A DNA stretch of 26,909 nt from a virus. Below, piece by piece: positions 1-26,238 of the stretch. The notes below the pieces were generated by a model, which worked only from the letters and a program-made list of their open reading frames with translations, did no database searches and was not told the origin of the DNA. Where the stretch lies: the IMG/VR virus record IMGVR_UViG_3300046757_000275, positions 1 through 26,909 of that record; one strand, 5' to 3'. How positions within the stretch are numbered: the stretch's first letter is position 1; every line of letters starts with the position of its first letter. Made by a program: the position numbers and the translations under genes.

Positions 1-3000
1 TAATTAAGTTTCTTTGGAATGCTTCGTTAATACCTGCGCCATTTGGATCTAAGAATAATTCAAACATACGTGCTACTTTTTCTAGCCACGCATCTGGAAC
101 TGCTGTTTGTCCACCTACTGTGCCAGCACCCATAATTCTTACACCGTTGGTTGTAACTTCACGTTTGAAGAAATCACTACCATCGCCTGTAACATCAATA
201 ATTGCACCATTGTTGTATTCCGGATCTGCCGGACTACCAGGAATTTCATCTGTGCCAGGAATTTCATCTGTGCCTTCTACAAAATCAGATGCATCAATTC
301 TTATACCGTTCCTGTAAACATTGTACTCGATTGTATCTTCTAAAGGTTTTGACAATTCAATAGCAACTGTACTTCCATCTAATACAAAAATTTCATCTTC
401 AAATGTATTTTCAAAAATATCCCAATTATCAGTATACCAACCTGATGTATCCCAGCCTGCTGGACCTGAGAAGTCAAAACTGCGTACTTCTACTCCGCCA
501 TAATCGATACCATCTAGTAACTGAGATAACTCTTTGCCAAACATATTTGCGCCTGGTTGATATGCAAATTTAATTCTATCTTCAGCACTTAATAAACTTA
601 TAGGTTTTGTATAATTTACTGTTATTACAGAATTTAGTTTAGGAGGAACATTAAATTTAATTCTACCTCTTTCTCTATTATACGTTTTTGTTGTATCTTC
701 AAAATTTTCATATGTATATTTGCTGCGTAATTGTAATACACCATCAACTAAAACTGAGACTTTTTTCAAATTAAGGTCCATTGGCCATATTAAATCGTAT
801 ATTGATTTAGCTCCTGTACCCGTTAGCGTTTCTGTTTCTTCGAGCGTATTAAAAGTGTAACTACCTGCGTTACGATCAAACTTCATTGCAACTTTAGTTG
901 ACCTTACTAGTCCGCCACCTAAAACTGCTGTTGCTTTTGCAGGAGTGCCATCGTCAGTTTGTGAGCCTTCAATTACAACAGTTGGAGCACTTGTATATCC
1001 ACTTCCCGGAGTAACAATTTCAATTTTAGTTATTTTTCCATAACCAAGATATGCCTTTGCTGTTGCGCCGGAGCCGCCGCCGCCTTGTATTTTAACAATT
1101 GGTTCAAATGTCCACCCACTGCCGCTATCACCAATTTTAATTTCAGTTATTTGTTGGCCTAGATTGTTTTTCCAATTTTGTCTTGGATTAACAGTACTAT
1201 CTAAGTTTTCATTTACAATAACATTGTCTAATATACGTGCTGTGCTTGATTCAATTCGCCCTGTGTCTTCATTATATGCCGGGCTTAAATCAAAGTCAGT
1301 TGTTCGAGAACTAGTATTGTCAAGTACATCATAATTGCTTACAAACTCTCTTAGTTTAGTTTTATAAGGTTTAAATTCTTCTACAAAATCTTGGTAACTT
1401 GACAAGTTATCATTATTAAACGTAATATCGTCTTGATTTAGTGTTCCTCTAATATGTTTTGCTTTTACAAAACTAGTTTTAAACAACCAATCTACAGTCG
1501 GTTGTTCTGCCATTAAATAGCGCAGTGAAGACATAAACAATTTATTGTATTCAACTTTTAAATTGCCTATGAAAATATTATCTCTAAGAGTTTCTAAAAT
1601 AGTTCTTATTTCTTTAGCAGGATTATTATCATAGAAAGTGTTATCAAATCTTCTATTATCAAATCCTACAGTATTTTCAAGGAAATTATAAAGACTTTCT
1701 TTAAGTTTTATTGTTCCATTTTGTCTACCAATTGTTTCAAAATTTACTGTATAATCTTCAGTTCTTTCATCAGCAACTTTTCTTAATAATAACCAACCGC
1801 CAGATCCAACATTATTAATTTTAACAACATCGTTAATAGTTAAATTTAAAGGAAATAGTTGATAAGATCCTTCAATACTAGTTGCAATTGGAGTAAATTG
1901 ATTATAGCCTTCTGCATACCAATCTACATAATCCCAGTATAACGATGTATCAAAACTTTGTAATGCTCGTCTATACCATTCTTTGGTACCATTGTTGTAT
2001 GAATATAAAGACCATTTGCCATTAATATTAGCATCTGCTGTTACTAATACTGTAAATGGTCTAACACTAATTGATGTTTGGTCGTTATATCCTATACCGT
2101 CATCAACAACAGTTGCTGATGTAATTTGTCCTAGGTTATTAATTTCAACCTTAATATCTGCATCTTTGCCTGCACCAATAACTTTTATTTTAGGAGCTAC
2201 TTTATAGCCGCGCCCTGGATTATCTATATTAACTCTTACAAGGTTGCCATTTACAATAACAGGAGTTAGTGCAGCAGTCTCTAATTTATTAGTACTAATA
2301 TACTGTAATTCATCTATACTGTCAACACTTAAATCCCATACTTGAGAACTAATTGTAGGAATTTCATCTTTATACGATAAGCTAGTTAAATCATATTCGT
2401 CAGTAATTAAGTTTTCTTCTAAAACTATATTAATTCTTTCAACTGCCTGTTTTAATGCTTCAGTTCTATTAACAAATAAACTCTGTCTAGGTCTAGACTG
2501 GACACCGTATCTCATGCTTACTGGAATGTTTGGATCAGGAACCGCTTTACCATTGCTGTCAAAGCCAATTAAACTATCAAACCATTTGCGCTCTAGATCA
2601 GGATCTGGTACACTATCGCTAGATCCGTCAGCAAACAACTTATATTGATTATGATAATTTTGTGCAACTTTTTCTAACGTGTGGTACTTAATTTGCAGAA
2701 CAATGTCATCGCCTTGTACTAAATCGTTACAGTTGTTAAGAACAAATTTGTCTTTTCCTAAGAAACTTAAAAATTTATATCCAGCAGTTCTTGGATCAGT
2801 AATTAAACTTGCAATTGTGATAGTATTAAGTTTTCTGCCAACTGGAATAGTTCTTTTATTAATTACCCAATAATAGTATTTTCTACTAAATGTCTTGCTT
2901 ATATTATCATAAGTAATTTTTGTAGAATATCTAGCATCGCCGTAAATTGACACTCCACTTACACCATTACTAGTTCCTTCTACTGATCCTGATAACTCGT

Positions 3001-6000
3001 CCCAACGACTTGGTAAGAAAACACTTTCTACCCATTCGCAAACAATAATAGCAGAACTTGGTGTTAATTTATTCCAATTATCTCTTTGGAAAGTTGTTGA
3101 ACCTTGATAAGGATTAACAAATTTAGCTGTTTGGGTATTCCACCAAACTTTACCAACATACTTGTCAGTCCATCCTAAATCAGGTTCGACTAATGGATCA
3201 GCTATTGTTCCTGTATTATAAAACGCAGGATCAGCTGGTAACTTATAAGATATTTCTTGTTCAGCCGGGCCTGGTATTTTACCTTGTATAACATCAACAT
3301 AATCAATGTATGAAACAACACTATTAGTTCTCTTATTGTAAACAAGTACTCCATCAAGTTGATTAATATCTACAGGAGTAATACCTTGGCTTATTACACT
3401 CCATGATCGTGTATTAGGTTTCTTTCTATAATTAAGCAAAATACCTTTATGATCTCTGCCATCAACATACTGGGTTGGAACACCTACATATGCATGATTG
3501 TTTATTGAATAAACGTTTTCACCAAATGTAGTTTGTGTCATTGGATAAACAAACTGTTCACCGTATACTAAAGTAGTACCAATTTTTTCATAAACATAAA
3601 CTAGGCCTCTGTCTAGTTTTGTATTTTTAAATGTAGTAAATTCTTTATCAAATGTAGTTTGAATTTCATTATCTTTATCAAAGGTTGTTGGTATTTTTTG
3701 ATCGCCGTTTAAACTTGAAATAAGTAAATCGTCTTTTCCAAAATCAACGCTAAATCCAAATTTTTCACTTTCTTCGTTACTAGGTGATTTGATTGTTTGA
3801 GATGGCCTAAAGATGCCGTCACTGTTTTGTGTCCAAATATATACTACGCCTTGATTAACTTTAACGTCATCGTTTAATGGAGCACCGATTGCTATTTGTG
3901 TTCCATCCGGGCTTAATGATACTGATTTTGCCCAATCATCACCATCAACGGGTGCCGGTATAACTTGTGATACTGAATATTTGTTATCAATTTCTCTATA
4001 TACGACTATGTTATAGTCAGTAGTGCTGTCCGCCTGTGCTAACTTTGTTGTTACAATTAATACATTTGAATCATCACTTACATCAAAACTTTCACTAAAT
4101 TCTAATATATTTTCTAACGGATCAAATACTGTTTCATCATAAAATGCATTTGCAGTTAAATTTGGCAAGTATCCTACATAATCAATTCTTGTAGTTAATG
4201 CTGTCCAAGAATTATTTGTATTCGAAGGAACAGCACTAGCAGCATCAATATTAGTTGTTGCTTTCCATAGATCATTATTATATGAGACTATATTATTTTG
4301 TCTGTATGCATATGCGTTATTAAATTCGCCCATAAACTCAGGATCTTTTCCGTAGCGCCAACTAATTTTATTCCAATATACTGTGTTTAATATTTCATTC
4401 ATAGTTTCTGGAACATCTTTTAGTGCTTCATAATAATCATCTTTATAAAGAACTACATCTCCTTTAGAATATGCATTTAATCTATATACACCAAGGAATT
4501 CTTGCTGAGGTGATACGCCGTGACGGAATATTTCAATTGAGCCTGGTTGTGTTCTTCTACCTGCAGAATCATTTTCTGCAATGCCGCTGTCGCTTTTACT
4601 TCCTACTAATAATGTATAGTAATTTCCAGACTGTACTATCTTAACTTTGCTACCAAACTGTCTGTTATTTGCTCTATACTCAGATACAAATATATCTTTA
4701 ATTCTATATGTACCGTTATTCAATCTTCTATATATTGCAACAGCACCTTCGTTTGTTAAATCATTGGATATTCCTAATTCCATAGCAGGAATATTAAACA
4801 CTTGTGTATAATCTTTGTTTAAACTAAACGGAGGATTAGAACTTCTAGATATTCCTGACTCAGTAACTTCAGTAAAGAATGCATATTCTTCATCAACTAT
4901 TTCAGGATTAGATACAATATCAAAATTAGAAGTATGTTCAAACACTACTAATTTTCCAACTAAATTAGTTTGGAGTGCAATATCGTTGTTTACATCTTGT
5001 ACTGTACCACATACACGATCAGTATCTGTTGCGCCTCTTAGTACAGTATTTGCTTTTCTTCTAATTTCATATTTTCCAATATTAGACTGTTCAACAAAAT
5101 CGCCAGTTAACACTTTTAAATACAATCTAACACTATTAAAGTTGCGCTGTACATATACAACCGATGCTGTACTTGTAGTAATTGTTGTTAATGCTAATCC
5201 ACCCTGTCCATCTTTTGGACTTTGTACATCTTCAATTATATCGTTAACTTGTGGTTGGAAGGCAAATCCATTAAAATCAAACTCACTAAGAGTCATATCA
5301 ATATATCCGTCCCATAGATCAATAACAGTATGTTGCTGGTTTAAAACATCGTACGATAAACCAGCAGCATCTAAATCAATATCTCTATTATCAAGATTAT
5401 AAAAATCAAAGTTTGGAGTAGCGCCGATATCAAGTTGATCCGAATATTGTTTGCCAACTCTTACTACCCATTTATTACTTGGTTGATCTGCTTCAACACC
5501 GTCTTGTCCGTCAGCAGGTGTTGGATCTCCGCGATATGACAAGTGTGATAAAAAGCTAACTCTATTTTTATTTGTTACATATACGCCAATGTCACCTACT
5601 GTGGCTTGAACATTATAGTATAAATTAGTGTCGCGCACTGATGATTGTAATAAAACATCAGCATATACTAGTCCTCTTCCTACATCATAATAACGTGAAT
5701 TATTATTATATGTCGGCGTTGCTATTTGCCAATATCCGCCAACTGCCTCTGATGTAGAATATGTATCTTCTTCAGTATAAAATCCTACAAAATCAGTATC
5801 GTCAATGTAAAGTTCGCCTGATATATCAAAAATACCATTTGAATTTTTAAGATATATAACTGCACTGTCACCTTTAAATGCAACATAAGATACATCTGCA
5901 CTACCTGTATCGGTAGTTATACGTTGACCTACTACAGGCAATGTTACAAAAGTATCAACAAACATAATATGGTCAATTTTTTCTAAAATAGTATGTTCGG

Positions 6001-9000
6001 CTGTAATAAATGCAGTATTAAGTTCTGGTATTTCTCCATCAAACGGTATATAATTATCTAAAGTTGGATATGTAAAGCTACGTTGGTTCCAGAATAAATT
6101 AACCCTATCACCAACAGATGTGCCTAAATATTGATCTTTAGGAGCACGTACTAACATATGATCTGTGTTAGCATAATTTGTTAATCCAGGATTACCTGCA
6201 ACTAATAAATTTAGTGTTGTGCTATCTGCGTCTGCAGAACTTGCAATATTAGTATAAGAGTCAAACGTTGAAAAAGGCTGACTAGCTATCTCAGGTAAAA
6301 TTTCTCTATTAGCTTTCCATAAACTTTCTCTATAACGTATTATATCACCCTTAACATAACTAGCATCAGGTTGGAAATCAAATGTCTGTTGACCATTGCC
6401 GTCATCTTTATATGCTAACTTAGTTTTAATATTACTTGCTTTTGGAATACCAACAACTAAGTATTCGCCATCAGGTGAAACATCTATGCTTTTACCAAAG
6501 TCGCAACTAGCTGGATTAAACAAATTAGTTTCATCAATAGTTATTTCTTGTGCTAAATTTAAATTAGCTACATCTCTTGATCTTCTGTAATATGAAATTT
6601 GTCCGTTACCTGCATTAGGTGCTGAAACAAAGACATTATTATTATTACTTGTTACTGCAATGCTATCAGAAAACCCTTGATCTGTACTGTCGTAATCTGC
6701 TGGATTTTCAAGTGTTTGTTGATTAGTATAAGCAGGGCTGTTTTCTAATACTGCCCAGTCATCGTCATATTTGTCAATCCAGAGCTTTTGTCCTTCGTAT
6801 AAATTTTGTCCAACTACACTGTTAATTTCTGAAACTGTAGGGATTCTAACAGAAATTAATCTAACTATAAGAAACGCTTCGCTGTCAAATACATTAATAT
6901 CGTTATCTAACGGTACTTCAATTACTACCTTGTCTAATAATACAGCAGCTACTTTATAAAGACCATTAAGGTCATATTTATTTGCAGCTTTAAATCCTAT
7001 ATAATCATCGACGTCGATTGCATTATCAACCCATGCATCTGTAGTAATTTCAACCCTAATATATCCTGGAGTTAAATTTCCATCTACAGGAATATTTACA
7101 ACCTTAGTTAGTTCAATGCAATTTACATTTGGTGTTGTTAGCTGTGCAACGTCCCAATCATCATTAGCAGTATTTGTAATCCAAACTGTTTGTCCTAAAC
7201 CTATTTGGTTTATATTAACACGAGTTAAAGTTGAAATGTCTCCTGCAAGGAAATTAACATCCTCGTTTCTTACATATCCGCCTGTTTTTACAAATTCTCT
7301 ATCTAATACTTTTGTAGGGAACGGAGTGTGTTCATACCCTTCTGGTTTGCTGTAAACTTCGTTTGGTAATATTCTATAATGGTTGTCAACATTTGTAGGT
7401 GGTAATTTTTTTACAAGTTCAAATGCTTGAGAATTCTCTACAAACTTTTTGTCATTAAGTTGAAATTCAACTTGTTGTACATCTTCTGTTGAACCAAATC
7501 GTCCTGTTTGTATTGCCCATTCTTCATAAAATTCTAAAGTATCTTGAGTGTTGCCTAATGCATCAAACAGATTAGTAAACACTCGCATAGTACCTTTGTC
7601 AGAAATAGCACCTCTGTAAAACTTATATTGACTTACATCGTCGTTGATAATATTGGCAAGATATTGACGTTTTTGATATCCAAACAAATGTTGTGCCATT
7701 TTTTGTTGTTCACTATCAAAGTTGTCAGAGTCTAAATCATAAAAATCTGCAAATTGATTAATTCTATAATCAAAGTTTGTTATTAATTCAGGTACTGGCT
7801 TTTCATTTAATCTATACCAAAAATTAGGATTAAATTTTTCTTCGCCAATAACATTTCTTAATGCTACATAATAAAACTGTTTATATTTTACAAGATCGCC
7901 AATTGTATAGTCTTTCCATTTTTCCCAATCGCCGTACTTTGCATCGTCAAATATAAATCCTGGAATATTTAATCCACCATTCCAGTTATCAGATCTATAT
8001 CCGTTAACACGGATTCTTTCTTGTCTATAACCAGTACTTGGATTATATATAGTATCGTTGAATACTGTTTTATTGTCTAATAGTACAACATGTTCTTTCT
8101 GCACTAATGGCAATGATGCATGATATAATCCGTCATCTGTATTTGTTATTTCAATTCCAAAAGAATTTTTATCTCTTAATAAACTACTAAAGTTTGAATC
8201 TAAGAATTCTCCAGAAGCCTTAAGAATTGAATATCCGTAAAATTCATCTTTTATATCATCAACTACATGGTAATCTTTCTTAAATCTTAAAAAGTTTGCT
8301 CCTGGACTTAATGCAATTAATGCTGTTGCAGCCCAACCTTGAGTTGTCCAATACATAAATTCTTTAGTTGAAGTATTCCAATTTTCTACAACATTTGCTT
8401 CTGAATCAAATTTATCAAACGCAAAACCTATATCTTCTAAACGTGCAGCATATCCTAACAGAAAATCAACAGTGTCCTGCACTGTATTAAATTTTGATCC
8501 ATAACTTAGTTTTTTAACTGTTGTTCTCTTAAAATCCTTTTTGAACTTTGCTGTCCTGCCGCCTTCTACAGGCAGTGCCGGCAGTTTAACTGTGTTGGTA
8601 TCAAACGTTTCATCTATACTTCCGCCAGTAATAAAATTACTAACAGCTCTAAAATAATTATTTCCAGCAAATATTACTTCGCCTGATCTGTATTGAGTAT
8701 TAGATGCAAACTCAGATGCTCTTACATTTCTGCCACCAACTGTAACTTCATAAAAAGAAGCTCCAGGTACTGTTTCATAGTATTCAAAATAAGGTTTTTC
8801 TATACTATATCCTCTAAGTACATATCCTACGTCTGCCTTTTCTATAATAACACCACTGTATGTTGCTAATTCTGTTGCACTACTTGTGTTTAGAAAAACT
8901 TGATAATTTTCTTGGGGTATAAAAATGCCGTCACGTGTAAGAGACTGTGTTGGCGATCTGCTATCTAAAATTAAATTAAAGTTTTCTTTGCTTGTAAATC

Positions 9001-12000
9001 CAGCAATTTTTACTCCTATTTGGTTATCTAAGTTTTTCAAATCATTTTGATAGCTGTTATATACTGTTAGGATGTCACTAGCAACTAAGTTATAAATGTA
9101 ATTTACAAAACCCGATGTCATTGTTCTTGAAGCAGACTCGTTAGTATTGGGAACCAAAAAGTCTTTCATTACTATTTGCTTATTGGTTTCAGTATATGCC
9201 CATTGACCTACTAAGTTTCTAGTTGTTCTAGAAACATCAAATCCTAAACCCATTGTTTTTGCAGGATTATTTACTAACATTGCTTTCATAACAGCAAATG
9301 GATATTCAGAACTTTTGCGCCATGCATTTTCTACAGGATTTTGATCACCAAATTTAAAATTTCTTACAGTACGATTCAAAACAAAATCTTGTACGTAGCC
9401 TGATCGCAACGGTGACATTAAAGAACCATTTTGACCAACTGGTAAATGTCCTGTTATGCCAGGTCGAGCAATTTTTTCATCTACTGTAATATTCTCTGGA
9501 TTTGCTATTCTGCCTTCTTCAATGTTTTTCCACAATATTAAATTATCGCTTGTATACGGCGCAGGACCATATACTGTATTCCACCAAGACGGTTTTGAAC
9601 TAAAGCCTTGAATTTCCCAAGGATGGCTGTGAGGACGATCTGTATCGTATGCATGTTGGTATATGCCTCTCCAAAATCCTGGATTCTCATTACCGTTTGG
9701 AGAATTTGTATCTGAGTAGTTAAATGTCCAATCATTATTTCTATCATAAAAAGTATTATTACTAAAATTTTGATTGTTTAAATTTGTTTGTAACCATTGT
9801 TGAAAGTCAGTTAGTAAAGCATTGTTTATATCTTGACGGCTAAAGTCATTTGTTTTATATTCGCCGCCAGTAAAGTGATTAACATCTAATCTGTCACTGG
9901 AATATTCAACTTTAATATTATTATAAATTCTTTTTTCAAATTCAAGTAGCAAACCATCTCTATAATCTTTATATGCTTTAATATAACTTCCGTCATGTCC
10001 TTTTACAAAAGCAACGCCAATTGGATATTCATTAATTTCAATATCATCGTTTCCTGTAATAACTTGTGTGCTATCAATATTAGGAATGAATAATAATGTG
10101 TTTAAACCCTTAAATGTTATAGTATGTGCTTTTCCATCTGTTGACATAGATTTTGCAATTGCCTTAGATGTATAAATTGGATATGTCCATCCAATTGTTT
10201 CTGTACTAATGTTTTCTTTTGATGTAGCTTCAATCTGTCCGTATATTTTATATGGGCCAGTAACATTAGGATCTAAAGGATATGCAGGCTGTACAGTATC
10301 ATCAATTACTATCATTGGATGATACTTAGGATACAGGCCTAACTTTGATGGTGTAGGAGCTATAAAAGATCCGTCTGAAGATTCGTATTCATATATTTCA
10401 ATTATGTCGTTTTCTTTTTGGTTAGCAGTAATTGAAATATATCCTACATTATTAAAATTATAATCTTTACCGTGTGTTAAAAGAGATTGGTTTAAGTAGA
10501 CCAATAACCCTCTTGGCTGTAGCGAGTTTAATGTAAAACTGTCTGTTAAAGGATAATCTTGGATTCTTGAATCCAATACAGCGTATTCAATTCTGTTAGA
10601 CGAACCATAGGGCATCATATCTGAGAAATAAAACGGCTGTGTCTTAACTTTATCTTTATTAATAGTAGACAATACTAAGTCTACATGAGTCTTAGTTGCT
10701 CCGTCAAACCCTAAGTTAGTAGCAGTTTCAATAAAGTTTCTTTTAAATTTTGCATATTCAGTTTTAGCATATTTTACTGCTTTAACAATATTAAAGTCTT
10801 TGCTTGTTACATGGTAAAGAGGCAAATTAATTGGACCACTGTGTTTTACAAAACGTTTACCGTAGCGATCTAAGTCGCCTAAATCTCTCAAGTTGTTGGG
10901 TCCTAAAAATTTACCAGTAAAATTTGGTAAATCTTCTAACATGCTATCTACATGATCGATTACTTCGCCTAAAGTAAATTGTGTAATGTCTTCATTTAAC
11001 GGATTTCTTTCTAAATTATACGGAAATTCGTAATACCCATTTGAATTTTTTACTGTCTTAGAATCTGTTTTAATTTTAACAGTATCATTAACAACTAAGT
11101 CTGTTATAAATTGTATTTGTGCAAGTTTGCCGTCTGTGTTAATAATATAATCAGTATTTTTTAATTTTATTTTGTTGTTAACAAATACTGCAACTTTTAA
11201 ATCAGTGATTGAAGATGATTCATCATATACATCTATATCAAAATTATTAAGTTTTAAATCTGTTGCTACATATTCCTTTACTACAAACTGTTTAGATTTT
11301 TGAGGTGTCTTACTAAAACCATTTGCATAATCAAATGTAGATAAAGTTTTATATTTTTTTAAGTAACCAGCATTAATTGATCCGTTAATTACAGAATTAT
11401 TTAATTCATATTCAAACGTATCATTTAATAAATCAAAACTAAACAATATGTCACCTGAATTATCAATATTTCTATATGATAAAGGAATTCCTATTTCAGC
11501 ATCTGCATTACCTTCGCCTACTGCATATGAAAATATCTTAGTTCCTTTAAAATCTGTTTGGGGATAATATACTGGGTCGCTATAACTATTGCCAGAATTA
11601 TCGCAAACTTCAAATAACGGCGGCTGATTAGTTTTTGTTTTTTCTTGTGCTATTACCCATGCATCGCCATGATAGTGATAGCTCTTACCTGCATTTACTA
11701 AACCTTGTGTAACTAAAATAGTTTCAAGATCAATTGGATTTGTGTCAGCAGTTTCAATTAAAGATATTTGCCTATTGTTTCCAATATCAACATATTTGAC
11801 TTTGAAAATTTTGCCACTAACTCGTATATCATTATCAGCTGTAAATAAAATTCTCATCCCTTCAGCTAGATCAATACCGTCAATATTGTATCCTATTTGG
11901 CCTTCAATTGTGCTAAAAACATCAGTAGTGTAAGTGTCAATTAAATCAACATCTTGTTTAGCACTTGCGCCAAAGTTATTAAGTTTTAGACCAGCTTCAA

Positions 12001-13456
12001 ATTCAATAATAGGACGTAATGCTCTTTTTGACTCGTCTAAGTTTTCAGATACATTATTATAATCATAACTTGCTAAAATTACATCTTTATGATGCCAACA
12101 ATTATACCTACTCCATGCATTCCTATCTTGACTTGCTCTATTAATAACTATATAATCTTTAGTTGCAGCATAGTTTCCTGCATTTGAATAAGGCAAGGTA
12201 TCAAATTCTTCGCTATCAAAAGGAACAGTTTTATTTTCACTATAGACAGCAGGAATAATTAAATCTTGATCTTTAATTAATTTAATCTTGTCACCAACAC
12301 CTTCAACGTACCAATTGTTTTGATTGTAAACTGCTGGCTCAGTATCGCCTTGGAAACGGATTTGCATTCCGTTAGATAATTCAACGCCGTTTGCACTTTT
12401 ATATGTTTTCTTACCTAAAATTTCATCAGTAACATTTAAAAAACTGTTTTCTTCAATGTCATATATTTTAAATAAACCACTAGTGTCAATTGCATTTTTG
12501 CTGATATAATATAATCTATCAGGTGAGTTTGCAGGAATAGTAAATTCTATTGTTCCTTTTTCAATATAAGCAACTGCTACTTCTTCGCCGTCTTCACCTA
12601 ACTTACGAATACCATCCGGATACAACGTTGAAACATTATCGTCAGCTTCAAATGTTACACTACCACTAGACGGTAATACAATATATTCGCCTTGGTCATA
12701 TTCGTTACCATATAATACTGCATCAAAAAGACCTTCGCCTCTAATCCCTTCATTGCCAGCAGTTAATACTGCACTGCCTGGTGTAAAATTTCTAGTAATT
12801 GCAAATGCAAGAGGGTGTCCAGGTGTATCAATTTCAAAGCGGTATGTTTGACCTCTATATAGTTTCAGTGACGGATTTCTTGTTAATCCATCATTAAACA
12901 CATATGCAATATTGTCGCCTTGATCCTCTGTAGTAACTGTATAAGTACTGACAATCTCTCTACTTTGACCTCGAACAGGAATGCTTAAAGGTCCAGTTGG
13001 CAACCAATAATATTCGCGGAAGTTTACAAATTTATCCCAATCAATATTTGGGTTCCATCCGTATGTTTCTTGTGAGTTTATTCTACTATGATTATCTATA
13101 TTTGCGCCAAAAACACTAAGTTGGCCCATATAGTCATTATAGTCTTTATAAAAAGTTACATTTTCATAATTGTCTTTAATAACAACAGCTGGTTCAAATT
13201 GATAATCTTCTCTATTTTTACTAACATCTGGAACGTAGTTGTCAGTTGATTTATATGCTTTTGCTGTTTTTCTGCCGTAATAGCCATTTAGTTTTTCTGC
13301 TACGCCAGGCTGTATAAGTTGATCAAGTGTTGCTTGTAAAAACTTTTTATTAGCCTTTGTTCTAAAGAATGCAGGTAAAAAATCAGCTGCTGTGATTTTA
13401 TTATCTTTTCCGGGCACCGGAAGTGGAGATACATTTTGATCGTCATTATATGCCAT
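1..13456 (-). CDS. Giant modular virion structural protein, probably baseplate wedge/peripheral (3' end beyond window)
   Basis: The frame starts at ATG 13456-13454 and has no stop to the left edge, so at least 4485 residues are encoded; the C-terminus is missing. The ATG overlaps the gp6 stop (TAATG), and a GGAGG lies 12 bases upstream inside gp6. Visible modules, by approximate residue: YYWLPTGP block (148-155); a cupredoxin-like beta domain (195-330); a HAYDTDRPHSHPWE...YGPAPYTSDNLILW block (1266-1307); CBM5/12-like segments with a GD-V/I-x-Y core (near 1850, 2370, 3000, 3060); FG-GAP-like propeller blades such as SLSPDGTQIAIGAP (2250-3330); a GKVWWNT block (near 3430-3490); and two PGxGY repeat modules (near 3750 and 4110-4160). 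Such proteins occur in marine T4-like phages as virion structural proteins. Its place directly after gp6 is where T4 has gp7 (1032 residues), so a wedge or peripheral baseplate role with possible host-surface binding is inferred, not shown. Confidence 0.85.
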   Translation of the reverse strand, partial: MAYNDDQNVSPLPVPGKDNKITAADFLPAFFRTKANKKFLQATLDQLIQPGVAEKLNGYYGRKTAKAYKSTDNYVPDVSKNREDYQFEPAVVIKDNYENVTFYKDYNDYMGQLSVFGANIDNHSRINSQETYGWNPNIDWDKFVNFREYYWLPTGPLSIPVRGQSREIVSTYTVTTEDQGDNIAYVFNDGLTRNPSLKLYRGQTYRFEIDTPGHPLAFAITRNFTPGSAVLTAGNEGIRGEGLFDAVLYGNEYDQGEYIVLPSSGSVTFEADDNVSTLYPDGIRKLGEDGEEVAVAYIEKGTIEFTIPANSPDRLYYISKNAIDTSGLFKIYDIEENSFLNVTDEILGKKTYKSANGVELSNGMQIRFQGDTEPAVYNQNNWYVEGVGDKIKLIKDQDLIIPAVYSENKTVPFDSEEFDTLPYSNAGNYAATKDYIVINRASQDRNAWSRYNCWHHKDVILASYDYNNVSENLDESKRALRPIIEFEAGLKLNNFGASAKQDVDLIDTYTTDVFSTIEGQIGYNIDGIDLAEGMRILFTADNDIRVSGKIFKVKYVDIGNNRQISLIETADTNPIDLETILVTQGLVNAGKSYHYHGDAWVIAQEKTKTNQPPLFEVCDNSGNSYSDPVYYPQTDFKGTKIFSYAVGEGNADAEIGIPLSYRNIDNSGDILFSFDLLNDTFEYELNNSVINGSINAGYLKKYKTLSTFDYANGFSKTPQKSKQFVVKEYVATDLKLNNFDIDVYDESSSITDLKVAVFVNNKIKLKNTDYIINTDGKLAQIQFITDLVVNDTVKIKTDSKTVKNSNGYYEFPYNLERNPLNEDITQFTLGEVIDHVDSMLEDLPNFTGKFLGPNNLRDLGDLDRYGKRFVKHSGPINLPLYHVTSKDFNIVKAVKYAKTEYAKFKRNFIETATNLGFDGATKTHVDLVLSTINKDKVKTQPFYFSDMMPYGSSNRIEYAVLDSRIQDYPLTDSFTLNSLQPRGLLVYLNQSLLTHGKDYNFNNVGYISITANQKENDIIEIYEYESSDGSFIAPTPSKLGLYPKYHPMIVIDDTVQPAYPLDPNVTGPYKIYGQIEATSKENISTETIGWTYPIYTSKAIAKSMSTDGKAHTITFKGLNTLLFIPNIDSTQVITGNDDIEINEYPIGVAFVKGHDGSYIKAYKDYRDGLLLEFEKRIYNNIKVEYSSDRLDVNHFTGGEYKTNDFSRQDINNALLTDFQQWLQTNLNNQNFSNNTFYDRNNDWTFNYSDTNSPNGNENPGFWRGIYQHAYDTDRPHSHPWEIQGFSSKPSWWNTVYGPAPYTSDNLILWKNIEEGRIANPENITVDEKIARPGITGHLPVGQNGSLMSPLRSGYVQDFVLNRTVRNFKFGDQNPVENAWRKSSEYPFAVMKAMLVNNPAKTMGLGFDVSRTTRNLVGQWAYTETNKQIVMKDFLVPNTNESASRTMTSGFVNYIYNLVASDILTVYNSYQNDLKNLDNQIGVKIAGFTSKENFNLILDSRSPTQSLTRDGIFIPQENYQVFLNTSSATELATYSGVIIEKADVGYVLRGYSIEKPYFEYYETVPGASFYEVTVGGRNVRASEFASNTQYRSGEVIFAGNNYFRAVSNFITGGSIDETFDTNTVKLPALPVEGGRTAKFKKDFKRTTVKKLSYGSKFNTVQDTVDFLLGYAARLEDIGFAFDKFDSEANVVENWNTSTKEFMYWTTQGWAATALIALSPGANFLRFKKDYHVVDDIKDEFYGYSILKASGEFLDSNFSSLLRDKNSFGIEITNTDDGLYHASLPLVQKEHVVLLDNKTVFNDTIYNPSTGYRQERIRVNGYRSDNWNGGLNIPGFIFDDAKYGDWEKWKDYTIGDLVKYKQFYYVALRNVIGEEKFNPNFWYRLNEKPVPELITNFDYRINQFADFYDLDSDNFDSEQQKMAQHLFGYQKRQYLANIINDDVSQYKFYRGAISDKGTMRVFTNLFDALGNTQDTLEFYEEWAIQTGRFGSTEDVQQVEFQLNDKKFVENSQAFELVKKLPPTNVDNHYRILPNEVYSKPEGYEHTPFPTKVLDREFVKTGGYVRNEDVNFLAGDISTLTRVNINQIGLGQTVWITNTANDDWDVAQLTTPNVNCIELTKVVNIPVDGNLTPGYIRVEITTDAWVDNAIDVDDYIGFKAANKYDLNGLYKVAAVLLDKVVIEVPLDNDINVFDSEAFLIVRLISVRIPTVSEINSVVGQNLYEGQKLWIDKYDDDWAVLENSPAYTNQQTLENPADYDSTDQGFSDSIAVTSNNNNVFVSAPNAGNGQISYYRRSRDVANLNLAQEITIDETNLFNPASCDFGKSIDVSPDGEYLVVGIPKASNIKTKLAYKDDGNGQQTFDFQPDASYVKGDIIRYRESLWKANREILPEIASQPFSTFDSYTNIASSADADSTTLNLLVAGNPGLTNYANTDHMLVRAPKDQYLGTSVGDRVNLFWNQRSFTYPTLDNYIPFDGEIPELNTAFITAEHTILEKIDHIMFVDTFVTLPVVGQRITTDTGSADVSYVAFKGDSAVIYLKNSNGIFDISGELYIDDTDFVGFYTEEDTYSTSEAVGGYWQIATPTYNNNSRYYDVGRGLVYADVLLQSSVRDTNLYYNVQATVGDIGVYVTNKNRVSFLSHLSYRGDPTPADGQDGVEADQPSNKWVVRVGKQYSDQLDIGATPNFDFYNLDNRDIDLDAAGLSYDVLNQQHTVIDLWDGYIDMTLSEFDFNGFAFQPQVNDIIEDVQSPKDGQGGLALTTITTSTASVVYVQRNFNSVRLYLKVLTGDFVEQSNIGKYEIRRKANTVLRGATDTDRVCGTVQDVNNDIALQTNLVGKLVVFEHTSNFDIVSNPEIVDEEYAFFTEVTESGISRSSNPPFSLNKDYTQVFNIPAMELGISNDLTNEGAVAIYRRLNNGTYRIKDIFVSEYRANNRQFGSKVKIVQSGNYYTLLVGSKSDSGIAENDSAGRRTQPGSIEIFRHGVSPQQEFLGVYRLNAYSKGDVVLYKDDYYEALKDVPETMNEILNTVYWNKISWRYGKDPEFMGEFNNAYAYRQNNIVSYNNDLWKATTNIDAASAVPSNTNNSWTALTTRIDYVGYLPNLTANAFYDETVFDPLENILEFSESFDVSDDSNVLIVTTKLAQADSTTDYNIVVYREIDNKYSVSQVIPAPVDGDDWAKSVSLSPDGTQIAIGAPLNDDVKVNQGVVYIWTQNSDGIFRPSQTIKSPSNEESEKFGFSVDFGKDDLLISSLNGDQKIPTTFDKDNEIQTTFDKEFTTFKNTKLDRGLVYVYEKIGTTLVYGEQFVYPMTQTTFGENVYSINNHAYVGVPTQYVDGRDHKGILLNYRKKPNTRSWSVISQGITPVDINQLDGVLVYNKRTNSVVSYIDYVDVIQGKIPGPAEQEISYKLPADPAFYNTGTIADPLVEPDLGWTDKYVGKVWWNTQTAKFVNPYQGSTTFQRDNWNKLTPSSAIIVCEWVESVFLPSRWDELSGSVEGTSNGVSGVSIYGDARYSTKITYDNISKTFSRKYYYWVINKRTIPVGRKLNTITIASLITDPRTAGYKFLSFLGKDKFVLNNCNDLVQGDDIVLQIKYHTLEKVAQNYHNQYKLFADGSSDSVPDPDLERKWFDSLIGFDSNGKAVPDPNIPVSMRYGVQSRPRQSLFVNRTEALKQAVERINIVLEENLITDEYDLTSLSYKDEIPTISSQVWDLSVDSIDELQYISTNKLETAALTPVIVNGNLVRVNIDNPGRGYKVAPKIKVIGAGKDADIKVEINNLGQITSATVVDDGIGYNDQTSISVRPFTVLVTADANINGKWSLYSYNNGTKEWYRRALQSFDTSLYWDYVDWYAEGYNQFTPIATSIEGSYQLFPLNLTINDVVKINNVGSGGWLLLRKVADERTEDYTVNFETIGRQNGTIKLKESLYNFLENTVGFDNRRFDNTFYDNNPAKEIRTILETLRDNIFIGNLKVEYNKLFMSSLRYLMAEQPTVDWLFKTSFVKAKHIRGTLNQDDITFNNDNLSSYQDFVEEFKPYKTKLREFVSNYDVLDNTSSRTTDFDLSPAYNEDTGRIESSTARILDNVIVNENLDSTVNPRQNWKNNLGQQITEIKIGDSGSGWTFEPIVKIQGGGGSGATAKAYLGYGKITKIEIVTPGSGYTSAPTVVIEGSQTDDGTPAKATAVLGGGLVRSTKVAMKFDRNAGSYTFNTLEETETLTGTGAKSIYDLIWPMDLNLKKVSVLVDGVLQLRSKYTYENFEDTTKTYNRERGRIKFNVPPKLNSVITVNYTKPISLLSAEDRIKFAYQPGANMFGKELSQLLDGIDYGGVEVRSFDFSGPAGWDTSGWYTDNWDIFENTFEDEIFVLDGSTVAIELSKPLEDTIEYNVYRNGIRIDASDFVEGTDEIPGTDEIPGSPADPEYNNGAIIDVTGDGSDFFKREVTTNGVRIMGAGTVGGQTAVPDAWLEKVARMFELFLDPNGAGINEAFQRNLI
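240..275 (-). repeat. Two-copy 18-bp tandem repeat inside the giant gene
   Basis: The plus-strand unit ggaatttcatctgtgcca occurs at 240-257 and again at 258-274, with the last base of the second copy changed. It is in frame and encodes a duplicated Gly-Thr-Asp-Glu-Ile-Pro type hexapeptide near residue 4400 of the giant protein. It looks like a recent slippage duplication in a surface loop. Confidence 0.85.
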
Positions 13457-16400
13457 TAGTAACTATATCCTCCGCTGTTACCGCTATTACTGCTACTGTT
13501 GCTGCTATTGCTGCTACTGATGCTGTTGCTTCCACTATTACTACTTCCGCTAGTTGTATTAGACACCCTTGACACTATGCCAGATGCTGTAGTTGCTACT
13601 GAACTAATTACGTTGCCTGATGCTTGTATCTGTGTTGCCGTAATCTCGTCTATAGTTTCAACATCGCCAACTGTTGCTGCACTTACAAAAATTTCATCTG
13701 GTTCGCTTTTTATTTCAAACAAACTACCAAACGACTGTGTTGTTTGTCTTGGAACTATTAAAAAGCTAACAAGTTTTGGTGATAATTGATTCATAATATA
13801 TGCACTAAGTTCTTGGAAGTAAAATGTTTCTCCAAAATCCCAATTTTCAATATCAAAAAACTTGTTTACTGCATCAATAATATCTGCTTTTAATTCATTA
13901 TCGTTAATAACTAAGTTTTTGTTTCTAACTATTTTAAATTTAACTTGTAAGCTCGGCTTTGCTTTGCTTCCAAAAAGTATCTTATATTTTACTGGATGAT
14001 AAATGATATCATCACTAATACTTTTAATTCTGTTAATATCATTACCATAATTTCTTAGCAATTCATCATTGCTTGGCGGCAACGGCTGAGTTACAAGGTT
14101 ACCTGTAATATATTGGTTAATTTGTTCGTTATAAGTTTTTGTTAATATGTAAGTATCTATAATATTACTTGAACTTGGATCAATTCTAAAATTACCATCA
14201 GCAACATGAACATAGTGAAACTTTAAATTAGAACGTCCAAAATATGCTTTATAGTCTGTATTAATTTGTGTATTATTCAATTGCTTGTTTAATTTTCTAA
14301 ATATTTGTTCGTCTTGAAGGTAAAATACTTGTCCTTCAAGACGAGAACTATAAGGTGCTATTGCAGCTTCATTCTGTACAATAATAATTTCATTGTTTAA
14401 GTTATTAAAAAACTTATAATCTTCTACTCCATCAGATGTAGTATATTTCTTTTGAAATATTACTTTCTCACCAATAGAAACAGAATCATCAAGTTCGCCG
14501 ACAATTTGTTCAAATATATCCGGATCATCAAATACTCCGTCGTCATCTAGATCAATAAATTGGATTTGTATTTTTCTGCTATCTAGATATCCTTCACTAT
14601 CTTTATACTGGTCTGTAATTGTCCAAGAATAATCTCTTGTAAACGGTGTTAATTCTCCAGGCTTACGATTAATATTTAGAATATCAATTTTATCACGTAC
14701 AGTTTTTCCTGTAGTAGGATCGTAAATTTTATCTGCATTATCAAAGAAGAAACGTATTTCATCTTCACTTTCCATTACATACCTTGTCTGACGGTATGTA
14801 ACAGTATATTTTTGACCGTCAGTCTTAAAGTACAACATCCAACTAGCATCTAGATTATCACCTGATGTGTCACCTGCTTTACCTGTTGCAAAATTACTAA
14901 TAGTGTTAACATCTTCGCCTACTACTATTTTCCATTGTCTATCGTATATGTCGTATCTTAATGCAAAGTTTCTTAGTTCAAATGCTTGGTCAATAAGTTG
15001 AGTTTTTACATCGTTAATTAATGCTAAGGCATACCTTGGTATTACTTGCTCAATTAAGGCGCCGGTGTCAATGTAGTCATTAATAACAATGCCTGCTGCA
15101 CTATCAGGATTCATTGATGTGCCGTCGTCGGTAACTGCCATTACTTTGACCCACTTATACATTGTTTTGCCTAAATGATCATTGCCATCGTCGTCCATTA
15201 ATGTGCCATTTGGCATAAAATGTTTTCCTGCTGGTGGAACAAACTTTATCATTGTACCTGTTTCTAATAATCTTAAACTATTAGCAGTAAAACTTCCAAC
15301 AGCATATGCGTTTTCACTTACATCTTGAAGAACTCCAGAATAAGAATTTGTTTCTGTTGTTACAGCTTTCCAAGAAGCATTTAGATCACTAACAATAATT
15401 TTTGGATATTGTGATAGATAAAAGTTTTTACTATTTGGATACTGAATAATCTTTTCAATTATATTATAAATTGCGCCTTCAATATCTGTTTGTGTTGAAA
15501 AAGTAAAAGTTTGCTTTTCTTGGTAGTTTTCTTTGTAAATAACTCCGTCATCTACAAATAAACTAGTGTTCGAATATTTTCCACTAGCATCCTTTAAATC
15601 AAAATACCTACTTATACCGCTAGAAATTCTATTTGTACTTTTAGTTTTAATAATTTCTTGACTTACTGCAAGAGGACCAATATTATAATCTTCTCCTGTA
15701 ACTAATCTATCTTGTGTATAATAAGTTGCAGGAGCATTTGCTTTTATTTCTTCGTTAGATTCTGATGCTGTGCCATTACTAACAGTAGATGTTAGTTTTA
15801 AGCCAAGTGTTAATGTTTCTTTGCTACCTGTTCTTGTTTGATAAGGTATTTCTATTTGTACAAGTCCTATTGCACTAGGTGTAATAATTGCTCTTGTTCC
15901 AGAACTTGTTCTATAATAAACTTTAAAATCTCCTGCTGGCAAATTACCAAAGACACCGTCACTAAAGACTAAATTAATCCTGTCCCCAATTCTCGTTGTT
16001 GCTGCAAATACATCTCTAGTACTGTTAAACAAACTGTTATATACAACATTGTTTCCTTCTACCGAGTCAATTTTAGTCCAAGATGAATTTTCAAATCCTC
16101 CAGAATTTAAACCGTATAACCAAATATCGGTATTATTGATATTTTCTGCATCAATAGCAATTGATTGATTTGGAGTAGGATTTGTAATTGTAAATTTTCC
16201 GCTATCTAACTTCCCTTGTCGGAAAGCCATAAAAAATCCTGTGTTAGCACTGCCAGCGCCTTGTCCGTCATCTCTAAATAACATAGAAGGATTATTGCCC
16301 GGGAGCGGAGGCTCTTCAACCAGCGCATCTCCTACAATATCTGTGCTTACAATTTCAAATCTTGTGTTAACACCTTCAATTCTTTTTGTAAATGGGTAAA

Positions 16401-16992
16401 TCGCCGAAGCTGTATTAGTAGAATTAAATTTATATTTTTGTGTTGAGACACCTGCAATAGATGACGACTTTAAAGGATTACCAACAGAGTTCTGTACAGG
16501 TAATGCTGAGTTCATTATTTTTAAAAACTGTTCAAAATAATTTGAATTAGTCTGGTCATTCCATTTTACTGTAATTCCTGCTAAATTTAATCCAGTACTA
16601 TCTAAAACATTTTCTGTAGTCTTAATTGTATCGATTTTCATCAAACCATTAGCTGATTGATTACGTCTCGGATTATATGCAAGCATACGAGCTAGACGTA
16701 AGACGCTTTCTCTACGTTCTGCTGTTTCAAGGAAATTTTCTCTTGCATTTAGATCAATGCGGAATGACAGGTTTTGCCCAAGGAAAGCAATCATATCAAT
16801 CAGTGCAAGATATTCACTAGATTCAATATAGTCGTTAAAATCTTCTGGATAATTTTGACGCAGATAATTAATCATTGTGCGTCTTAAATTGTCAAAATCG
16901 TATGACTGAAAATCAGCGTTACGATATGATTGATAAATTCTTTTCCAGTCCTCAGCTACTAATAACCGTGACTGCCTATCAGTTGCAGACAT
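13456..16992 (-). CDS. 6: Baseplate wedge protein gp6
   Basis: Encodes 1178 residues. In T4, gp6 forms the inner ring of the baseplate that joins the wedges around the hub and controls sheath contraction. Residues about 28-115 carry the recognisable N-terminal signature of marine T4-like gp6: DFDNLRRTMINYLRQNYPED, then a SSEYLALIDMIAFLGQNLSF helix and a RRESVLRLARMLAYNPRR segment. A second conserved part near 1010-1104 (NWDFGETFYFQELSAYIMNQ) resembles the gpJ-like C-terminal core. The protein is much longer than T4 gp6 (660 residues). The last 45 or so residues are a Ser/Asn/Gly-rich tail, probably disordered. The start is supported by AAGGA 7 bases upstream. It follows gp25 after 58 bases, and its stop overlaps the giant gene's start by one base. 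A late-type promoter motif precedes it. Confidence 0.9.
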   Translation of the reverse strand: MSATDRQSRLLVAEDWKRIYQSYRNADFQSYDFDNLRRTMINYLRQNYPEDFNDYIESSEYLALIDMIAFLGQNLSFRIDLNARENFLETAERRESVLRLARMLAYNPRRNQSANGLMKIDTIKTTENVLDSTGLNLAGITVKWNDQTNSNYFEQFLKIMNSALPVQNSVGNPLKSSSIAGVSTQKYKFNSTNTASAIYPFTKRIEGVNTRFEIVSTDIVGDALVEEPPLPGNNPSMLFRDDGQGAGSANTGFFMAFRQGKLDSGKFTITNPTPNQSIAIDAENINNTDIWLYGLNSGGFENSSWTKIDSVEGNNVVYNSLFNSTRDVFAATTRIGDRINLVFSDGVFGNLPAGDFKVYYRTSSGTRAIITPSAIGLVQIEIPYQTRTGSKETLTLGLKLTSTVSNGTASESNEEIKANAPATYYTQDRLVTGEDYNIGPLAVSQEIIKTKSTNRISSGISRYFDLKDASGKYSNTSLFVDDGVIYKENYQEKQTFTFSTQTDIEGAIYNIIEKIIQYPNSKNFYLSQYPKIIVSDLNASWKAVTTETNSYSGVLQDVSENAYAVGSFTANSLRLLETGTMIKFVPPAGKHFMPNGTLMDDDGNDHLGKTMYKWVKVMAVTDDGTSMNPDSAAGIVINDYIDTGALIEQVIPRYALALINDVKTQLIDQAFELRNFALRYDIYDRQWKIVVGEDVNTISNFATGKAGDTSGDNLDASWMLYFKTDGQKYTVTYRQTRYVMESEDEIRFFFDNADKIYDPTTGKTVRDKIDILNINRKPGELTPFTRDYSWTITDQYKDSEGYLDSRKIQIQFIDLDDDGVFDDPDIFEQIVGELDDSVSIGEKVIFQKKYTTSDGVEDYKFFNNLNNEIIIVQNEAAIAPYSSRLEGQVFYLQDEQIFRKLNKQLNNTQINTDYKAYFGRSNLKFHYVHVADGNFRIDPSSSNIIDTYILTKTYNEQINQYITGNLVTQPLPPSNDELLRNYGNDINRIKSISDDIIYHPVKYKILFGSKAKPSLQVKFKIVRNKNLVINDNELKADIIDAVNKFFDIENWDFGETFYFQELSAYIMNQLSPKLVSFLIVPRQTTQSFGSLFEIKSEPDEIFVSAATVGDVETIDEITATQIQASGNVISSVATTASGIVSRVSNTTSGSSNSGSNSISSSNSSNSSSNSGNSGGYSY

Positions 16993-17050: not shown

Positions 17051-17491
17051 TTAACTTAATAAACCGTTTTCTTTGTCAAATTTAAAACGTAACTGATCTT
17101 GGATTTTATAAGGTAAAAATATAAGAGATATATCAACTTGTATGCCTTGCTCGTATGTGTCAACTATAATTTGATCTATTTTTGTTCTAGGATCATAGTT
17201 AACAATACGAGTAACATCATTAACTACTGCTTCTTGTACTTCTTTTGTAAACGGTTCAAATAAAATATCCCATATAATTGTTCCAAATGTAAGATCGCTT
17301 AATTTTTCACTCTGTCTAATATGGAAATGATTTATTAAATCTTGCTTAATTAAGTCGTAGTCGTACAACCCGAAGTTTCTTGCATCAGGTGAAACTGTAG
17401 AAAATCCTCTATAGGTTCTACCGTCAAGTGATTTTTTAGAATTTGGTTGTACTGTTACACGTTTATATAGATTTTTTTCTAATTGACTCAT
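17051..17491 (-). CDS. 25: Baseplate wedge protein gp25
   Basis: Encodes 146 residues, close to T4 gp25 (132). The family (GPW/gp25) forms part of the inner baseplate next to the sheath and is related to TssE of type VI secretion systems. The family core is visible as DLTFGTIIWDILFEPFT at residues 66-82, matching the usual pattern of a Gly-containing strand followed by an FEP segment. After it come the helix EAVVNDVTRIVNYDPRTKI and a beta strand pair (QVDISLIFLPY). It has the usual length for the family, and its gp5-gp25-gp6 order is typical of marine T4-like phages. AGGG lies 10 bases before the ATG. Only 15 bases separate it from gp5. Confidence 0.9.
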   Translation of the reverse strand: MSQLEKNLYKRVTVQPNSKKSLDGRTYRGFSTVSPDARNFGLYDYDLIKQDLINHFHIRQSEKLSDLTFGTIIWDILFEPFTKEVQEAVVNDVTRIVNYDPRTKIDQIIVDTYEQGIQVDISLIFLPYKIQDQLRFKFDKENGLLS

Positions 17492-24185: not shown

Positions 24186-24485
24186 TTACAATCCTAATGT
24201 TTGTCTTATTAATTTGTCTTGCGGTAGATAAATTTTAGTTCCTGCAATAAAATCAAAAACAGGATCTTTAATAATATCCATATTACGTTGTGCAAAAACC
24301 CACCATAACTCTCTTCTTCCATAAGCAACATAAGCTAATAAATCGGGTCTATAAGTAAATTCAGGCTTAATCTCGTAAAGAACATCATCTGGATGTACAG
24401 GAATAGCTCTAGGAGATAAGATATCTAAATACCCTGCTTTGTTAACTGTTGTATTGCCATATGGTGATAAACTTTTTGTTTGCAT
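24186..24485 (-). CDS. 53: Baseplate wedge protein gp53 (LysM-like)
   Basis: Encodes 99 residues. In T4, gp53 joins wedges together and completes the baseplate ring. Residues 39-90 carry the family hallmark of a LysM-like fold: IKPEFTYRPDLLAYVAYGRR, then ELWWVFAQRNMDIIKDPVFD and AGTKIYLP. The pattern Y-RPDLLAY-x-YG-x-x-x-LWWV-x-A-x-x-N-x-x-I-x-DP is typical of gp53-type and other LysM baseplate proteins. It is about half the length of T4 gp53 (196) and is reduced nearly to this one domain. Its ATG overlaps the gp48 stop (TAATG) with AAGGA 9 bases upstream, and its stop directly precedes the hub gene's ATG, so translation is probably coupled on both sides. Confidence 0.85.
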   Translation of the reverse strand: MQTKSLSPYGNTTVNKAGYLDILSPRAIPVHPDDVLYEIKPEFTYRPDLLAYVAYGRRELWWVFAQRNMDIIKDPVFDFIAGTKIYLPQDKLIRQTLGL

Positions 24486-25341: not shown

Positions 25342-25370
25342 TTGACAAAATTATGTATGTATATTATAAT
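25342..25370 (+). promoter_or_regulatory. Consensus sigma70 promoter for gp55
   Basis: TTGACA at 25342-25347 and TATAAT at 25365-25370 are separated by 17 bases, an exact match to the housekeeping sigma consensus. Transcription would start near 25377, followed by GGAG at 25385-25388 and the ATG at 25399. This points to expression by unmodified host polymerase early in infection. Because the -35 box contains a TTG codon, the promoter also argues against starting gp55 there. Confidence 0.9.
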
Positions 25371-25398
25371 AAATATATTAACCTGGAGCCTAACAATA

Positions 25399-26238
25399 AT
25401 GCGAGCAAAAAATTATCTAAACAACAAAGATATCTTAAAAGAAATACACAAGTCAAAAAATACATTCAACAGCTATATAGATCCGTCATACGGACAATAT
25501 GATATTATTCTTCCTGACGTAGAAAAAATTAATATACGTACAATTGCCGAAGCAAAGCGCAATAAAGCAAAAAAATTGTCAAGTGCAGAGTATGAACGTA
25601 GAAAAATGGCAGGTGAAAAAGTAAAACAAGCAGAATGCGAAGTTCCTTACACTTCGATTACTAAAGAAGAATTAATCTTCCGTGTTATGACGTTTGATCA
25701 CATTCCGGAAGAGCCCGGAAGAAAGAAAAATCCTAAAACTATTGCAGATACTAAGGTAAAATTAAATTTCCCTCCATTTAAGCATTATAAATTCGATGAC
25801 GAAGGAAATTTACAACTAGTTGGTAAGTCACACTGGGAAGGCGGCATGGAAAATGGTAGTTTTAATCATAAACACGGTAAAGCAACTGATAAACTTGCAA
25901 TGATGTGGTTAAAATTAGTGGATCGTTATGCTACCCGTGGCAATGTTCGTGGATATACTTATAACGATGAAATGAAAGGGCAAGCTATTTTACAATTAAC
26001 ACAAATTGGATTGCAGTTTGATGAGTCAAAGTCAGACAATCCTTTTGCATATTATACCGCAGCCGTAACAAATTCGTTTGTTAGAGTAATTAACATTGAA
26101 AAACGTAATCAAAACATACGCGATGACATTTTAGAAATGAATGACTTAACGCCAAGCTATACTAGGCAGAACGAAGGCGAATGGGAAGCTAGTGTTAAGC
26201 GTAACGAACAAGCTGGCCAGACATCGTTCACTGATTAA
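25399..26238 (+). CDS. 55: gp55, sigma factor for late transcription
   Basis: Encodes 279 residues from ATG 25399, which has GGAG 10 bases upstream. A frame extension to TTG 25342 is rejected because it begins inside the -35 box. gp55 replaces the host sigma factor and recognises late promoters. The N-terminus (NYLNNKDILKEIHKSK) matches T4 (YVNNKELLQAI). The sigma region-2-like core is at about 160-240: DRYATRGNVRGYTYNDEMKG, then FDESKSDNPFAYYTAAVTNS and FVRVINIEKRN. T4 has 185 residues; here about 120 extra residues lie between the N-terminal motif and the core, rich in Lys/Arg with a few aromatic patches. The C-terminus (EQAGQTSFTD) shows no clear match to the sliding-clamp-binding tail of T4 gp55. 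The identity is secure; the role of the insert is unknown. Confidence 0.92.
   Translation: MRAKNYLNNKDILKEIHKSKNTFNSYIDPSYGQYDIILPDVEKINIRTIAEAKRNKAKKLSSAEYERRKMAGEKVKQAECEVPYTSITKEELIFRVMTFDHIPEEPGRKKNPKTIADTKVKLNFPPFKHYKFDDEGNLQLVGKSHWEGGMENGSFNHKHGKATDKLAMMWLKLVDRYATRGNVRGYTYNDEMKGQAILQLTQIGLQFDESKSDNPFAYYTAAVTNSFVRVINIEKRNQNIRDDILEMNDLTPSYTRQNEGEWEASVKRNEQAGQTSFTD

Follow-up and report, generated by a model that had tools for sequence, protein, structure and literature searches.

The IMG/VR record IMGVR_UViG_3300046757_000275, a genome fragment of 26,909 bases analysed here over its whole length (the window), is half filled by a single open reading frame that follows a gp6-like baseplate wedge gene. 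At this position T4 carries gp7 (1032 residues), which completes each wedge as a third chain beside two copies of gp6. The locus therefore raises the questions of whether so long a gene is real, to which family its product belongs and what part this giant protein plays in the baseplate.

The uninterrupted frame described in the earlier note was recovered, with its ATG overlapping the gp6 stop codon by 1 nt at base 13456 and with no stop codon before the window edge (Table 1). Its full length, which that note had left open, can now be put at about 5,490 aa. In the relative G003 the giant is complete at 5,486 aa and shares 94% amino acid identity with the part in the window, and with G003 as the guide the gene extends ~1,000 codons past the edge of the window. 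Further complete copies reach 5,488 aa in G004, 5,511 aa in G001 and 5,038 aa in G002. An internal stop, which the note had named as a sign of error, was found in none of the 44 relative contigs examined; the frame is open in all of them over 3,628–5,624 aa, some being cut by contig ends. Comparison of 4,395 codons in the window and G003 revealed 154, 80 and 507 differences at codon positions 1, 2 and 3, respectively, and this excess at third positions points to purifying selection on a protein. As the frame is complete in G003, G001 and G002 and unbroken in the 44 contigs, it did not arise by chance, and we conclude that the giant gene is real. At ~5,500 aa, its product is among the longest known phage proteins.

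Profile searches matched PHROG 10938 to the giant over most of the chain, in six stretches (E 3.7e-293), and three conserved regions, here named cores N, M and C (Table 1), each match this family separately (E 1.7e-101, 1.7e-127 and 8.8e-71, respectively). The members of PHROG 10938 are giants of 3,148–4,555 aa in jumbo phages, including those of RaK2 (3,326 aa), Cassandra (3,857 aa), Atu_ph07 (4,449 aa) and Phosso (4,555 aa), together with CBB_236 and phAPEC6 gp245. They have in common with the window giant the three cores, the slot after gp6 and the upstream genes, whereas the window giant is longer and has its own C-terminal extension with an exchangeable cassette. By sequence similarity, it is a longer, insert-bearing member of an already known jumbo phage family. 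Finished isolate genomes hold homologues of about 3,300–4,600 aa, and independent contigs carry the whole gene in one frame. The independent contigs rule out an assembly error as the source of the giant frame, and it is very improbable that separate genes were falsely joined or that the contig end is chimeric, a point taken up with the cassette below.

The gp6-like wedge gene is followed by the giant in Phosso, Atu_ph07, Cassandra, RaK2, CBB and phAPEC6, and in Vibrio phage 2.275.O the giant comes after a 1,287-aa gene in the gp6 slot. Salicola phage SCTP-2 is the exception, with gp6 90 kb away from the giant; a different giant, encoded by a 3,096-aa ORF (L097:5609-14899), sits ahead of the PHROG 10938 giant in that phage. 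The window order 47-55-x-53-x-5-25-6-giant is the same as in Cassandra and RaK2, and the window giant is the gene immediately following gp6 of a 46/47-55-53-5-25-6 block, as in the PHROG 10938 phages. The SbcCD-sigma order is that of the PA5oct-like Cassandra, and three fibre-like genes follow downstream. The gp5-like hub protein of the window ends in a VgrG3-like T6SS domain (PF21277, E 7e-31) where T4 has lysozyme.

Two members of the family have been detected in virions by mass spectrometry, CBB_236 with 21 peptides in CBB (PMC5259590) and the 381.9 kDa gp245 with 17 peptides in phAPEC6 (PMC7247149). Both are the homologues of the giant that adjoin gp6. PHROG 10938 is therefore a virion protein family, and the giant of the window phage is presumably a structural virion protein. 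The earlier note had proposed that structural and receptor-binding roles are fused in one chain; homology to these two virion proteins upholds the structural part, and receptor binding by the giant is a prediction from its modules. RaK2-like phages that carry the giant family have whiskers (PMC7247149, PMC5259590), and the giant is long and in part repeat-rich, features that would suit a protein forming long whisker-like tail fibres instead of part of the wedge. We consider this improbable, as almost every relative keeps the giant together with gp6, and the conserved cores of the protein consist of dense globular domains instead of repeats.

The nearest relatives of the window gp6 are in jumbo phages, at about 35%. 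When a search of genome contigs was made, a contig of 335,231 bases (PBPT01000016.1; L532, L539-L555) was found that is filed under a Neomarinimicrobiota MAG. It is 93% coding and contains a T4-type large terminase, a sheath and the same baseplate block as the window; an end overlap was looked for and none was found. Its gp6 is 67% identical to that of the window and is directly followed by a giant of 5,265 aa, and the gene adjoining its gp55 is 84% identical to the gp47/SbcD-like gene of the window. We conclude that this is a phage contig misbinned in the MAG. The shared gene order suggests that the window is a fragment of a jumbo phage genome, most likely from a phage like that of the 335-kb contig. 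A T4-sized genome was given up in light of this contig, and the marine T4-like context proposed earlier gives way to PA5oct, RaK2 and Atu_ph07 as the closest phages, all of them jumbo phages. The same MAG includes a second contig, of 153,204 bases, with a member of the giant family, and further members are found in smaller contigs of Pelagibacter, Porticoccaceae, Rickettsiales, Endomicrobia and Methanoregulaceae MAGs. That these samples are marine or aquatic is taken from the MAG record titles.

With gp6 directly before it and the gp53, gp5 and gp25 genes further upstream, the gene does occupy the 'gp7 position' assigned to it previously, but detectable homology to T4 gp7 does not go with this place. 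No significant match was obtained when T4 gp7 was aligned to a profile of the whole giant family with hhalign (E 0.37), a tblastn-type comparison likewise gave none, and the profile of T4 gp7 domain V (Gp7_5th) stayed below its cut-off on the giant. T4 gp7 (1,032 aa; PF21427, PF21428, PF21456) is five times shorter, and the likeness between the two consists of the place behind gp6 and that 23-aa sub-threshold match. Among the fold-search matches of core M there was no gp7. At the sensitivity of profiles, no T4 gp7, gp8 or gp9/10-N match over the cut-off was found in Phosso, Atu_ph07, Cassandra, RaK2, SCTP-2, G001 or G002, with one gp9/10-N match below the cut-off in SCTP-2, and gp8 likewise had no match in four further long contigs and in the MAG with the 335-kb contig. 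Thus, the relatives revealed, at profile level, no T4-like version of the separate gp7 homologue that the earlier note had envisaged elsewhere in the genome. The window giant corresponds to T4 gp7 by position, and similarity does not place it in the T4 gp7 family.

A helical segment within core M, KGT...EW (aa 1890-2000), resembles part of P2 gpI (PF09684) and of XM1 gp17, which has been identified as the T4 gp7 orthologue (PMC10457771). Both may have a counterpart of it in a similar order to the window giant, in proteins of 180-240 aa as against about 5,490 aa. With hhalign, the segment gave P 0.0024 against a gpI profile made from seven GenBank sequences (gpI relatives in viral contigs being too alike for a profile), P 0.3 against T4 gp7 and P 0.1 against the corresponding cyanophage motif. 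It came first of 50 slices of the giant, though narrowly (25.2 versus 23.7 for the next), and since a chance slice scores so close the likeness to gpI is only suggestive. The segment is poorly modelled, the Tail_P2_I profile (PF09684) has no match on the giant, and the gpI profile found nothing across the relatives of the giant in this lineage.

A giant of 6,376 aa in cyanophage S-RIM12 (L105:18720-37850) also lies directly behind gp6 and resembles the window giant in position, size and glycine-rich repeats. Cores N, M and C are not shared, and as only small glycine-rich repeat modules are common to the two, the S-RIM12 giant is ruled out as an orthologue. It contains the T4 gp7 motif DFYSAKGTSFSIAYLFKLLYGETV (hhalign 95%, E 3e-8), to which the window giant has no match. 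In pelagimyophages and cyanomyophages gp7 is described as absent and substituted by VrlC (PMC7029224); the S-RIM12 giant has the motif nonetheless, and it and that VrlC may not be one protein. The window giant could also be a strongly diverged orthologue of T4 gp7 and P2 gpI in which inserted domains came to separate the N-terminal helices from the KGT segment. Its gene position and the gpI score would fit such an origin, as would the S-RIM12 giant, which occupies the same slot, matches the T4 gp7 motif and has the same layout, with helices at the N-terminus and a KG segment far from them. However, the direct comparisons with T4 gp7 and the cyanophage motif and the close scores of the null slices argue against it, and we put its chances slightly short of even.

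Table 1. Features of the 26,909-base window and of the giant protein encoded in it
Feature	Position	Strand	Residues (aa)	Evidence or remark
Giant ORF	2..13456	-		4,485 codons, ATG start, 3' open; PHROG 10938
Conserved N-terminal segment	13007..13456	-	1-150	kept in all jumbo relatives
Cupredoxin-like domain	12437..12949	-	170-340	Foldseek
Core N	10307..12424	-	345-1050	conserved, mostly beta domains; blastp to jumbo giants and model
Core M	7412..10018	-	1147-2015	most conserved part
KGT...EW helical segment	7457..7789	-	1890-2000	suggestive resemblance to P2 gpI / T4 gp7 motif
Lineage insert	3437..7411	-	2016-3340	CBM5/12-like and FG-GAP (propeller-like) repeats
Gp7_5th weak match	5879..5947	-	2504-2526	17.3 bits, cut-off 27
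CBM_5_12 match	4205..4315	-	3048-3084	26.6 bits, cut-off 26.2
FG-GAP_2 match	3836..3946	-	3171-3207	26.8 bits, cut-off 23
Core C	1247..3424	-	3345-4070	conserved, contains helical block DWLFKTSFVKAKH
Glycine-rich repeat (GSGYT..P)	971..1165	-	4098-4162	
Linker and first part of cassette	2..274	-	4395-4485	whole cassette ~340 aa
gp6-like baseplate wedge	13456..16992	-		1,178 aa; PHROG 10646, E 3e-287
gp25-like baseplate wedge	17051..17491	-		profile matches
gp5-like hub, VgrG3-like C-terminal domain	17507..19984	-		profile matches
gp53-like baseplate wedge	24186..24485	-		PHROG 7145, E 6e-23
gp55-like late sigma factor	25342..26238	+		
gp47/SbcD-like nuclease subunit	26300..26908	+		3' open

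When the giant was compared with the jumbo phage giants by blastp, the blocks kept were aa 1-170 plus 345-1050, 1147-2015, and 3345-3690 plus 3830-4070. Helices are predicted in the first 150 residues (e.g. 34-48) with low model confidence, and this segment is a candidate for the gp6-binding part. The domain that follows it matches rusticyanin in Foldseek (probability 1.00, TM by target about 0.42), and a copper site is not evident in it; a stretch related to this domain, with a weak match, was also seen in a cyanophage gp9-slot protein. The AlphaFold model of aa 1-1060 is of moderate quality (pLDDT 62.7). The modelled portion consists of the cupredoxin-like domain and unassigned beta domains and contains no recognised baseplate fold, so the description of the N-terminal part as baseplate-like was not borne out. 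Core M was modelled better (aa 1140-2035, pLDDT 76.5); its sole match in a fold search of the PDB was a chitin-binding domain, near aa 1575-1618, and its matches in BFVD were mostly members of the PHROG 10938 family, including Atu_ph07. By sequence, the whole giant matches nothing in the PDB, and profile searches of the PDB gave only weak matches, a chitin-binding domain for core M and a stretch of tailspike for core C. A search of NCBIfam returned no match.

Between cores M and C, where RaK2 has about 226 aa, lies an insert of ~1,300 aa. Two of its repeats are just over the Pfam cut-offs (CBM_5_12 and FG-GAP_2), in agreement with the carbohydrate-binding-like and propeller-like modules recognised earlier. 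Beyond aa 4070, glycine-rich repeats of a kind common to many marine phage structural proteins, of which a second copy occurs near aa 3727-3802, are followed by the C-terminal extension.

At aa 4400, the identity between the window and G003 drops from 0.97 to about 0.55, immediately behind a flank that is ~95% identical. The final 81-91 residues in the window are unlike those of G003, and the same allele occupies the same place in L012, L034 and L037. L003 is 96% identical to the window before the site and is without the cassette. The two flanks are 9-27 aa apart in most relatives and 351-417 aa apart where the cassette is present; in a few relatives the cassette is located about 400 aa further on. 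Its two alleles, alike at about 48%, have in common the invariant EHVFHTxH and other residues, which could form a metal site. Hence the cassette is present, absent or swapped among relatives with near-identical flanks. The one circumstance that fits an assembly artefact is that the cassette junction of the window, at which the allele type switches, lies ~270 nt before the end of the contig, a region prone to branching in assemblies. A chimera is therefore possible for the contig of the window alone, and the pattern rests on the other contigs, among them L012, L034 and L037 with the same allele in the same place.

No named family was found for the cassette in NCBIfam or by profile searches. It recurs over 324 aa (E 9e-233) in a 1,723-aa 'baseplate wedge subunit' of cyanophage S-RIM12 that is otherwise a different protein. 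There it stands before a YHYH domain, which is a predicted zinc hydrolase (PMC7824862); the cassette of the giant is itself not YHYH. The cassette may be a host-contact or envelope-acting unit and is possibly enzymatic. A more far-reaching reading has one chain taking over the roles of T4 gp7, gp8, gp9 and gp10, and treats the cassette as a mobile unit for host contact or for acting on the cell wall, which has passed between marine lineages that are unrelated (jumbo phages and cyanophages) and from one baseplate protein to another; in our view this reading is rather unlikely.

We consider that, in a marine jumbo myophage, the giant probably serves as a peripheral subunit of the baseplate wedge, a wedge scaffold bearing surface-binding modules. 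It would take the place of T4 gp7 beside the two gp6 copies of the wedge. The conserved core of ~2,800 aa (N, M and C, in all relatives) would be the scaffold that binds gp6, and the N-terminal helices and core M would make the giant the third member of the wedge next to the gp6 dimer. The ~1,300-aa beta-rich insert and the C-terminal extension with its ~340-aa cassette would face outward, to contact the surface of the cell or to carry fibres; with such modules displayed on the wedge chain, scaffold and host contact would be combined in one chain. Binding of gp6, outward display and binding to the host surface are all predicted from sequence.

Support for the giant as a wedge subunit comes from the gp6-giant order in the window, the jumbo phages and the 335-kb contig, from the PHROG 10938 match together with the two homologues in virions, and from the failure to detect gp7, gp8 and gp9/10 at profile level in the relatives tested. 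The binding-type modules, the cassette variation behind near-constant flanks, the fibre-like genes that follow and the resemblance of the KGT...EW segment to P2 gpI point the same way. Counting against it are the lack of significant similarity to T4 gp7 and of any gp7 in the core M fold search, the narrow lead and poor model of the gpI-like segment, the SCTP-2 giant that is not beside gp6, and the fact that the virion data come from CBB_236 and phAPEC6 gp245, homologues in other phages. CBM5/12 and cupredoxin-like domains can also be purely structural. The giant might, accordingly, be only a scaffold or adaptor that enlarges the baseplate periphery, its modules structural and the receptor bound by the products of the downstream fibre genes. 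Three fibre-like genes do follow, and cupredoxin-like domains in which no copper site is evident and CBM5/12-like domains are building blocks in other phage tails. However, a cassette that is present, absent or in two alleles between flanks ~95% identical is what host-contact parts would show, and we regard a purely structural role as possible but less than likely.

The giant ties abundant and unstudied environmental phage contigs to jumbo phages for which a virion protein is known, and a full length and a domain map are available for a protein that fills about half of the contig. What is new here in a known family is the ~1,300-aa CBM5/12 and FG-GAP insert and the swapped C-terminal cassette. 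How the baseplates of jumbo phages function without recognisable gp7-gp10 can now be put to a direct test. The cassette junction is a site at which a baseplate subunit appears to exchange host-contact parts, and the swapped cassette is the part of the giant most worth following.
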